NCBI RefSeq assembly: GCF_001278755.1
Contig: NZ_CP012601.1
Location: forward strand, 3,534,154 to 3,598,153
Length of the DNA: 64,000 nucleotides
Reading direction: 5' to 3'
Source: Bacillus sp. FJAT-22090
Lineage (GTDB): Bacteria; Bacillota; Bacilli; Bacillales_A; Planococcaceae
Shown piece by piece: positions 7,195 to 8,445 of this stretch; positions within the stretch are counted from its first letter, which is position 1; each line of letters opens with the position of its first letter. The position numbers and the translations under genes were made by a program. Below the pieces are notes generated by a model. The model had not been told where the DNA came from and did no database searches. It was given only the letters and a program-made list of their open reading frames with translations.

Positions 7195-7225
7195 TCTATA
7201 GAGTAATATTTTTTACTCTATAGAG
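7195..7225. promoter_or_regulatory. double palindromic operator before the HTH/F1-beta gene
   Basis: TCTATAGAGTAA (7195-7206) and its exact complement TTACTCTATAGA (7213-7224) are separated by six bases. Each arm contains its own small palindrome (TCTATAGA, CTCTATAGAG). The site is about 65 bp upstream of the start codon of an HTH protein, so it is a good candidate for its autoregulatory site. It could also form an RNA hairpin. Confidence 0.5.
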
Positions 7226-7288
7226 AAAAAAGATGTTGCATTTAAAAGTAAAATAAATTACTATTAAAAGTAACGAGGAGGGGAAATA

Positions 7289-8329
7289 ATGGATGAAATA
7301 CGTTTGAACGTTGCCTTATTAAGAAGAAAAGTACCTAACCTAACAACCGCTGCTAAATCGATGGGAATTCGGCCAGCAACTGTCTCGAATTTATGCACAG
7401 GAAAAATTGATTTAGGGAAGGCTGAGGTACGAACGCTAGTAGGTCTTGCATCATTAGCTAACTGTACGGTAGATGAGCTTATAATAAGAGGGGAGAAGTT
7501 GAATATGATTGAAACGAAAATTAAAACATTGGATTTCTTTGCGCCGCTCGTAAAAGAAGGTATGACGGGTTTAATAGCTAGACCAGGTATGGGGCAGGTT
7601 GTCATTTTAGCTGAATTAATGCATCGATTTAAAAAGAGCAATTATACAACTGTATTCTTATTGCCGACAACGGAATACAGTGTATTAGAAGGGACCATAG
7701 AGTTAGCTGACTATAAAACAAAATCGATTGAGGAGACATTCAAAAGTCTTTCTTCAATTTCGGGGGATATCATTTTTATAACGGATAAAAGCTATATTGT
7801 TTCCGGAGAACTTTTAGATTTGCAAGAAAAGCTAGTGGCTGAAAATATTAATAATATTACAACCATATTATTAGACCTTTCTGGGGAAGTAGTGGATGAG
7901 GAAATGCCTTATGGTCCTTTAGAAACGGTATGGCAACTAGATGTTGATCTCGCTACAAGACATTTGTATCCAGCGGTGCATCCGTTATATTCTACATCCT
8001 CAATAATTGAAGGAGTAGATTTAGATCAACGTCATTTTAACTTAAGGCAACGTGCTCAAAAGTTATTAAGAAGATATCGAGAACTGCGTTCGATCGTAAC
8101 AGTTCATGGCAAAGATAAGATCCGAGACACTGATCTAGAAACATACGAACGAGGCACACGTTTAGAAGCCTATTTTACTCAACCGTTTTTTGTCGCTGAA
8201 GAAGTTACGGGCCAAGAGGGTAAAGAGGTAACTATGGAACAGACGCTAAAAGATGTTGAGTATATTTTAGAGGGTAAAGCTGACGATCTTTCGATTAAAG
8301 AGCTAATGTTTAAAGGAAGTTTAGTATAA
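7289..8329 (+). CDS. XRE-like HTH domain fused to degenerate F1-ATPase beta-like domain
   Basis: 346 residues. Residues 1-65 form a Cro/XRE-type helix-turn-helix (A-A-K-S-M-G-I-R-P-A-T-V-S-N-L core). From about residue 73 the protein follows the F1-ATPase beta subunit: E-T-K-I-K-T-L-D-F-F-A-P matches the canonical ETGIKVIDLLAP, and L-Y-P-A-V-H-P-L-Y-S-T-S matches IYPAVDPLDSTS. The C-terminal part has R-Y-R-E-L, Q-P-F-F-V-A-E-E-V-T-G and I-L-E-G-K-A-D in beta-subunit order. The N-terminal beta barrel is missing. The P-loop is broken: A-R-P-G-M-G-Q-V replaces GGAGVGKT, so the catalytic Lys is Gln, and the G-E-R-T-R-E-G segment with the catalytic Glu is gone. It should not hydrolyse ATP conventionally; a ligand-sensing repressor is my inference. 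RBS is AGGAGGGG; a terminator follows. Confidence 0.85.
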   Translation: MDEIRLNVALLRRKVPNLTTAAKSMGIRPATVSNLCTGKIDLGKAEVRTLVGLASLANCTVDELIIRGEKLNMIETKIKTLDFFAPLVKEGMTGLIARPGMGQVVILAELMHRFKKSNYTTVFLLPTTEYSVLEGTIELADYKTKSIEETFKSLSSISGDIIFITDKSYIVSGELLDLQEKLVAENINNITTILLDLSGEVVDEEMPYGPLETVWQLDVDLATRHLYPAVHPLYSTSSIIEGVDLDQRHFNLRQRAQKLLRRYRELRSIVTVHGKDKIRDTDLETYERGTRLEAYFTQPFFVAEEVTGQEGKEVTMEQTLKDVEYILEGKADDLSIKELMFKGSLV

Positions 8330-8330
8330 C

Positions 8331-8367
8331 AAAAAAGTGAGTGGAATTAACTTCCACTCACTTTTTT
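8331..8367 (+). terminator. rho-independent terminator
   Basis: AAAAAGTGAGTGGAA pairs with TTCCACTCACTTTTT across a five-base loop, then a T-run. Confidence 0.9.
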
Positions 8368-8382
8368 TAATGGAAAATAGTG

Positions 8383-8445
8383 TTTAGTTGGAATCTTAGA
8401 GTATTTAGTTGGAAAAATGATTACTTTAGTTGGAATATCTAATGA
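8383..8445. repeat. three direct repeats at exact 21-bp period
   Basis: The 11-mer TTTAGTTGGAA occurs at 8383, 8404 and 8425, exactly 21 bp apart, with variable 10-bp spacers. Two helical turns per unit place all copies on one face of the DNA. The array lies about 90 bp upstream of the DUF2243/CtaG cluster and just after the previous terminator, which fits an operator or activator array. Confidence 0.7.

Follow-up and report, generated by a model that had tools for sequence, protein, structure and literature searches.

In the genome of Bacillus sp. FJAT-22090 (Planococcaceae), we analyzed a stretch of 64,000 nucleotides of contig NZ_CP012601.1, referred to as the window. The gene at 7289..8329 on its plus strand encodes a protein of 346 residues, in which a helix-turn-helix (HTH) domain is fused to a degenerate F1-ATPase beta subunit (pseudo-F1-beta). 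The promoter of this gene carries a conserved array of short half-sites, and a small number of species also have this array ahead of an M3-family oligopeptidase gene or a formamidase operon. We consider it likely that the protein is an autoregulated one-component repressor with a retired F1-beta domain as its sensor, which co-represses the M3 or formamidase genes in those few species and is released by a ligand. The regulator is present in many genera of Bacilli, yet it is a ‘hypothetical protein’ wherever its annotation was seen. With a promoter array and a matched peptidase in hand, its function is directly testable.

The open reading frame is intact, and both frame and coordinates were confirmed. 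The HTH domain comprises residues 1–70 (7289..7498, plus strand) and is better conserved (mean 0.82) than any other region. Pfam HTH_26 matches the window protein with an E-value of 0.0058, below the gathering score, and is found at E ≤ 0.01 in 22 of the 28 diverse members from which we built the family profile and alignment, which identifies the domain as a Cro/C1-type HTH. The best match in PHROGs is a transcriptional regulator (E 0.0014).

The first-pass annotation had described an HTH welded to a pseudo-F1-beta domain, and this architecture is borne out, with the F1-beta module spanning residues 70–346. The profile searches proposed there place this part with the beta subunit of ATP synthase: NCBIfam atpD (TIGR01039) matches the regulator at 118.8 bits (E 2.6e-34; the equivalog cut-off of 462.85 is not reached), a phmmer search of PDB returns F1-beta chains (best E 2.9e-32), and the 28-member profile reaches E 2.8e-44 against PDB beta chains. 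The profile match falls into two stretches. Profile positions 70–115 (extending to 126 for a second chain) correspond to beta 131–188, and positions 173–347 correspond to beta 281–459 of the PDB chain. About 92 beta residues between these stretches are reduced to about 46 in the regulator, whereby the GER(TREGND) segment is lost. As the beta match starts at profile position 70, with the HTH ahead of it, the N-terminal beta-barrel is missing. The end of the nucleotide-binding fold and the C-terminal helical domain are present (residues 173–346, 7805..8326, plus strand), as seen in the NCBIfam, PDB and profile matches; PF22919 detects the helical domain in 27 of 28 members. The regulator is not an AtpD, since the bit cut-off, the Walker A Lys and Thr, the catalytic Glu segment and the barrel are all lacking. 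The same genome has a genuine atpD at another place, 34% identical to the regulator. The match of the regulator to the V-type ATPase B subunit is much weaker (12 bits, E 0.06).

The catalytic site of F1-beta is degraded throughout the family. The annotation had read Gln for the Walker A Lys and a missing catalytic Glu segment in the window protein, and the 28-member alignment and the profile match extend both to the relatives. In the degenerate Walker A motif ARPGMGQ (residues 97–103, 7577..7597, plus strand), the Lys position is Gln in 28/28 members, and the Thr position that follows is Leu (22/28), Val (5/28) or Phe (1/28), never Thr. The P-loop Gly-Gly is replaced by Ala-Arg in 27 members and by Ala-Lys once. 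Ala97, Met101, Gly102 and Gln103 are invariant, and Arg98 is found in 27/28. A shortened and poorly conserved middle stretch (residues 127–172, 7667..7804, plus strand, delimited by the profile alignment) stands in for the catalytic Glu segment; the Walker B Asp166 lies inside it (7784-7786, plus strand) and is retained in 28/28. The acidic DELSEED loop of F1-beta is not retained in the alignment.

F1 residue positions were mapped through the gapless alignment of the profile with a PDB beta chain; we take bovine F1-beta numbering to be offset by 118 residues from that of the regulator, and the numbers of the catalytic residues are likewise those we assume. The aromatic residues of the adenine pocket are mostly retained: position 227 is Tyr or Phe in 28/28 members, position 300 is Phe in 27/28 and position 306 is aromatic in 23/28, the window protein itself having Val at 306. 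Phosphate binding by the pseudo-beta domain is unlikely, because the Walker A Lys and Thr, the P-loop glycines and the catalytic segment are gone family-wide. The domain may still accommodate a nucleoside-like or other flat ligand, given the adenine-pocket aromatics and the Walker B Asp. We also considered aurovertin as a ligand. According to PMC9615146, its hot spots on F1-beta include Arg412, Gln411 and Tyr458. Judged by these residues, aurovertin is an unlikely ligand, because Arg412 is replaced by Ala in 27/28 members and Gln411 by Glu in 28/28, and Tyr458 is variable. The invariant dead P-loop raises the question of what the F1-beta fold senses once catalysis is lost.

The array on the promoter of the regulator consists of two putative operator blocks on the plus strand, each with three half-sites. 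Block 1 (7202..7228) reads AGTAA at 7202-7206, TTACT at 7213-7217 and AGAAA at 7224-7228, and agrees with the consensus AGTAA-N6-TTACT-N6-AGTAA at 14/15 positions. Block 2 (7247..7273) reads AGTAA at 7247-7251, TTACT at 7258-7262 and AGTAA at 7269-7273, which is a perfect 15/15 and the match without mismatch in its own genome. Successive half-sites lie 11 bp apart and point in opposite directions. When the consensus was scored upstream of 50 distinct members, block 2 reached at least 13/15 in 46 of them, no further than 75 bp from the start used, and block 1 reached at least 12/15 in 34, at a distance of 42–46 bp on the upstream side of block 2. After shuffling, upstream regions attain the score of either block in 0.06% of cases each. 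The presumed −35 element TTGCAT (7236..7241, plus strand) sits in register between the blocks, and its TTGC is conserved at 91–100% per base in 46 aligned members. The presumed −10 element TACTAT (7259..7264, plus strand) follows 17 bp past the −35 and is overlapped by block 2; in the 46 members its T/A/C/T occurs at 98–100%, 98% and 83%, and the next AT at 76/100%. The promoter consensus scan lists nothing here, and we infer both elements from their position and conservation. A ribosome-binding site, GAGGAGGGG, is read at 7275..7283 on the plus strand. The annotation had placed an operator at 7195-7225. Its position in a conserved array stands, and the extent has to be corrected to 7202-7273, as 7195-7225 takes in just one block. 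The conserved promoter array backs the proposal that the protein regulates transcription.

To locate the array elsewhere, we searched 65 genomes that carry the regulator and 15 that do not for a strict pattern with at most one mismatch. It matches 43/65 carriers vs 0/15 non-carriers, three of the latter from the same genus, and a reversed control pattern gave one match across the 80 genomes. By hand count, the 59 matches listed comprise 51 at the regulator's own promoter, seven at six other places and one at a degenerate copy. In two of the six places (genomes G111 and G567), the array sits at the promoter of an operon that has the regulator among its genes. At the other four (G005, G007, G016 and G017), the array lies 48–49 bp ahead of the start of an M3 oligopeptidase gene and scores 15/15 each time; 26 other M3 loci score 8–12/15. 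These peptidases belong to one M3 subfamily, with six copies among the matches listed from 261 genomes of the family (G005, G007, G016, G017, G111 and G115). They share 53–100% identity, the next best among those matches being 44%, and a 15/15 array precedes all six. The M3 gene of G111 and that of G115 stand immediately ahead of the regulator, in an operon. The G111 gene is split in two frames, its longer piece being 58–61% identical to its own subfamily vs at most 44% to other M3 genes, and one in-frame TAG interrupts the G016 copy. In G567, the order is array, formamidase, alpha/beta hydrolase and regulator, and in G341, a genome of another family, the genes for the regulator and a formamidase overlap by 7 nt.

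Two candidates for further targets were set aside. In G202, an M3 peptidase gene lies 324 nt past the regulator (locus L252, 2762-4513); judged by its match, it is a different type of M3 peptidase, and no array is present in the preceding gap. In the window's own genome, an extra two-half-site match (G000:C1:843356, locus L170) lies at least 152 bp ahead of an open reading frame and has no third half-site, and we take it as chance. The degenerate copy counted above is a second regulator copy with one in-frame TAG and a perfect array ahead of it (locus L103, G515:C23, contig ~19077-19565).

The regulator is a conserved protein. Among 18 other genomes of the same genus, 15 have a full-length orthologue with 76–83% identity; the gene is absent from G002, G009 and G014. 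Within the family, 56 of 261 genomes contain a match, 53 of them full length and three partial (G054, G110 and G115). Of 398 genomes sampled from the class, 19 match, and of 398 from the phylum three match, one of them from another class; the two samples overlap. Nine families beyond its own hold members (f6, f7, f16, f19, f22, f33, f48, f58 and f142), and named hosts include Psychrobacillus, Paenisporosarcina, Sporosarcina limicola, Oceanobacillus piezotolerans and one Paenibacillus plasmid. In 11 pairwise comparisons, pN is 0.03–0.47 and pS 0.55–0.94 for every domain, and the gene is under purifying selection; dN/dS is often undefined because pS is saturated. In a tree of 51 proteins, the Oceanobacillus protein groups with proteins of two genera from the same family as the window, one Sporosarcina group falls within the Psychrobacillus/Paenisporosarcina clade, and f48 joins f142. 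These placements suggest horizontal transfer between genera and families, in a tree where several deep branches are long and poorly supported. Among the best 10 of 108 plasmid records, the Paenibacillus cellulositrophicus member is 51% identical over 99% and annotated as hypothetical protein; the remaining matches have 24–27% identity and are mostly annotated atpD. Phage records (10 of 19) show 23–33% identity and in no case span 80% of the query, and a PADLOC search for defence systems gave no match. In Paenisporosarcina quisquiliarum (locus L035, ~6001), the regulator lacks residues 1–93, and the frame starts in unrelated sequence inside the contig.

For the mechanism, we propose that the HTH would bind the AGTAA half-sites, which alternate in orientation and lie 11 bp apart. 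A protein bound along the array would cover the presumed −35, the spacer, the −10 and the start region, thereby keeping the level of the regulator low; we speak of a repressor because a protein on the array should block RNA polymerase. In the few species with an array on the dedicated M3 oligopeptidase gene or the formamidase operon, these hydrolases would be co-repressed. The F1-beta part, having lost its barrel, its catalysis and its phosphate binding, would have been reused as the sensor and probably also as the oligomerisation unit. With three half-sites per block and six in all, a plain dimer would be odd; F1-like proteins form hexamers, and a hexamer or a trimer of dimers would be in keeping with this number. 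The binding of a ligand, rather than ATP hydrolysis, is expected to free the regulator from DNA.

Several observations weigh against this repressor model. The strict pattern finds no match in 22 of the 65 carriers. A looser pattern gives 24 matches vs 24 for its reversed control, and a pattern of four half-sites with three mismatches gives 25 vs 78. Single two-half-site matches occur in four gene-lacking or other genomes, mostly within open reading frames. The known targets are few, and in the window's own genome the array was found at the regulator's own promoter only. The regulator is present in 16/19 and 8/9 genomes of the two genera that hold the M3 gene; since most genomes of both genera carry it, co-occurrence alone proves little, and it is the arrays and operons that count as evidence.

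Other readings have to be weighed against the repressor model. Since the targets, where found, are hydrolases, the pseudo-F1-beta might mimic a drug target and serve as its decoy. It would bind small peptides or other toxins that competitors direct at F1-ATPase, the repressor would be freed, and toxin-destroying hydrolases (the M3 oligopeptidase, the formamidase and neighbouring detoxification genes) would be made. We regard this as a minor but real chance; if true, the cell would detect an antibiotic by means of an inactivated version of the very protein that the antibiotic attacks. The annotation had suggested a nucleotide or energy-state sensor, in which ATP or ADP on the pseudo-beta domain controls DNA binding. 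The universal Walker B Asp and the adenine-pocket aromatics speak for it; the family-wide loss of the phosphate-binding and catalytic residues, the Val at 306 in the window protein itself and targets (a peptidase and a formamidase) without an evident energy theme speak against it. ATP sensing is not supported by the alignment, and we consider this proposal unlikely.

The best preserved F1 part is the C-terminal domain, which, together with an array confined to the regulator's own promoter in the window's genome and most others, would suit a protein that docks onto F1 subunits or onto intermediates of assembly and thereby monitors or disturbs how ATP synthase is put together, with DNA binding only setting its own level. 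Such docking fits poorly with the missing barrel, which is the domain that holds the F1 crown, with the loss of the DELSEED loop, and with a sporadic presence and apparent transfer across genera and families that one would hardly expect from a component of a core machine. In the neighbourhoods listed, no atp genes stand beside the regulator, and we find this reading quite improbable. Binding is deduced from sequence alone, and the array could in principle serve another regulator, the fusion protein being no transcription factor. However, the array is absent from all 15 genomes without the gene and travels with the gene over nine other families, which makes this idea very improbable. A misassembled or decaying atpD copy, with just the loss of catalytic residues in its favor, is refuted by the widespread, mostly full-length orthologues, by pN below pS and by the separate genuine atpD, and its chance is negligible.

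The repressor model can be compared with known systems. The nucleotide-binding fold up to the P-loop, its C-terminal part and the entire C-terminal domain align with F1-ATPase beta without large gaps; unlike AtpD, the regulator has an HTH in place of the barrel and lacks the Walker A Lys and Thr, the catalytic Glu segment and the DELSEED loop. The B subunit of V/A-type ATPases is a non-catalytic rotary subunit without a working P-loop. It offers a precedent for P-loop loss in the superfamily, but it is still a rotary subunit. In the MocR/GabR, ROK (NagC/Mlc) and NrtR regulators, an HTH is fused to an enzyme fold that binds a ligand and does not catalyze. The window protein would resemble these one-component regulators in pairing an HTH with a sensor domain that was taken over from an enzyme or has ceased to act as one, and we know of none among them with a rotary-ATPase subunit. 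As in XRE/Cro-C1 regulators, the HTH is N-terminal and the promoter array suggests autoregulation, and we infer sequence-specific DNA binding; the sensor domain and the putative operator of two blocks with three half-sites each are different. The annotation had known of no described regulator of this design, and our search of the literature, which left out subscription papers and preprints, agrees in finding none. To our knowledge, this would be the first regulator built from a rotary-ATPase subunit.

Downstream of the gene, an inverted repeat followed by a T run (8331..8368, plus strand) is presumed to be the terminator, as read in the sequence; the consensus scan lists none here. Three copies of TTTAGTTGGAA follow in 21-bp steps ahead of the next gene (8383-8435), within the segment 8383-8445 that the annotation had taken as a second operator. 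The repeats are real in the window, yet no such repetition was seen at the other loci of the genus that were examined, some of which reach just 1.5 kb past the gene, and the operator finds no support in relatives. The annotation had also pointed to the neighbours, presumably oxidase-assembly genes. Over 35 neighbourhoods compared, the downstream neighbours are common to same-genus loci only, which does not bear out a link to oxidase assembly, and no theme is common to all the neighbourhoods.

In other genera, different genes adjoin the regulator. In genus g7 (locus L080, 8196-9881), the protein after the regulator matches Pfam TxDE (toxoflavin-degrading enzyme) and Beta-lactamase; judged by the N-terminus, such a gene is present in eight g7 loci, on the same strand and with a gap of 31–112 nt. 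In genus g3 (locus L081, 7033-7617 and 8880-9320), the downstream gene matches Aminoglyc_resit and the upstream gene passes the FosB model; nine g3 loci look alike in the downstream gene. In genus g4 (locus L074, 6322-7443), a Bcr/CflA-type efflux transporter is encoded immediately ahead of the regulator.
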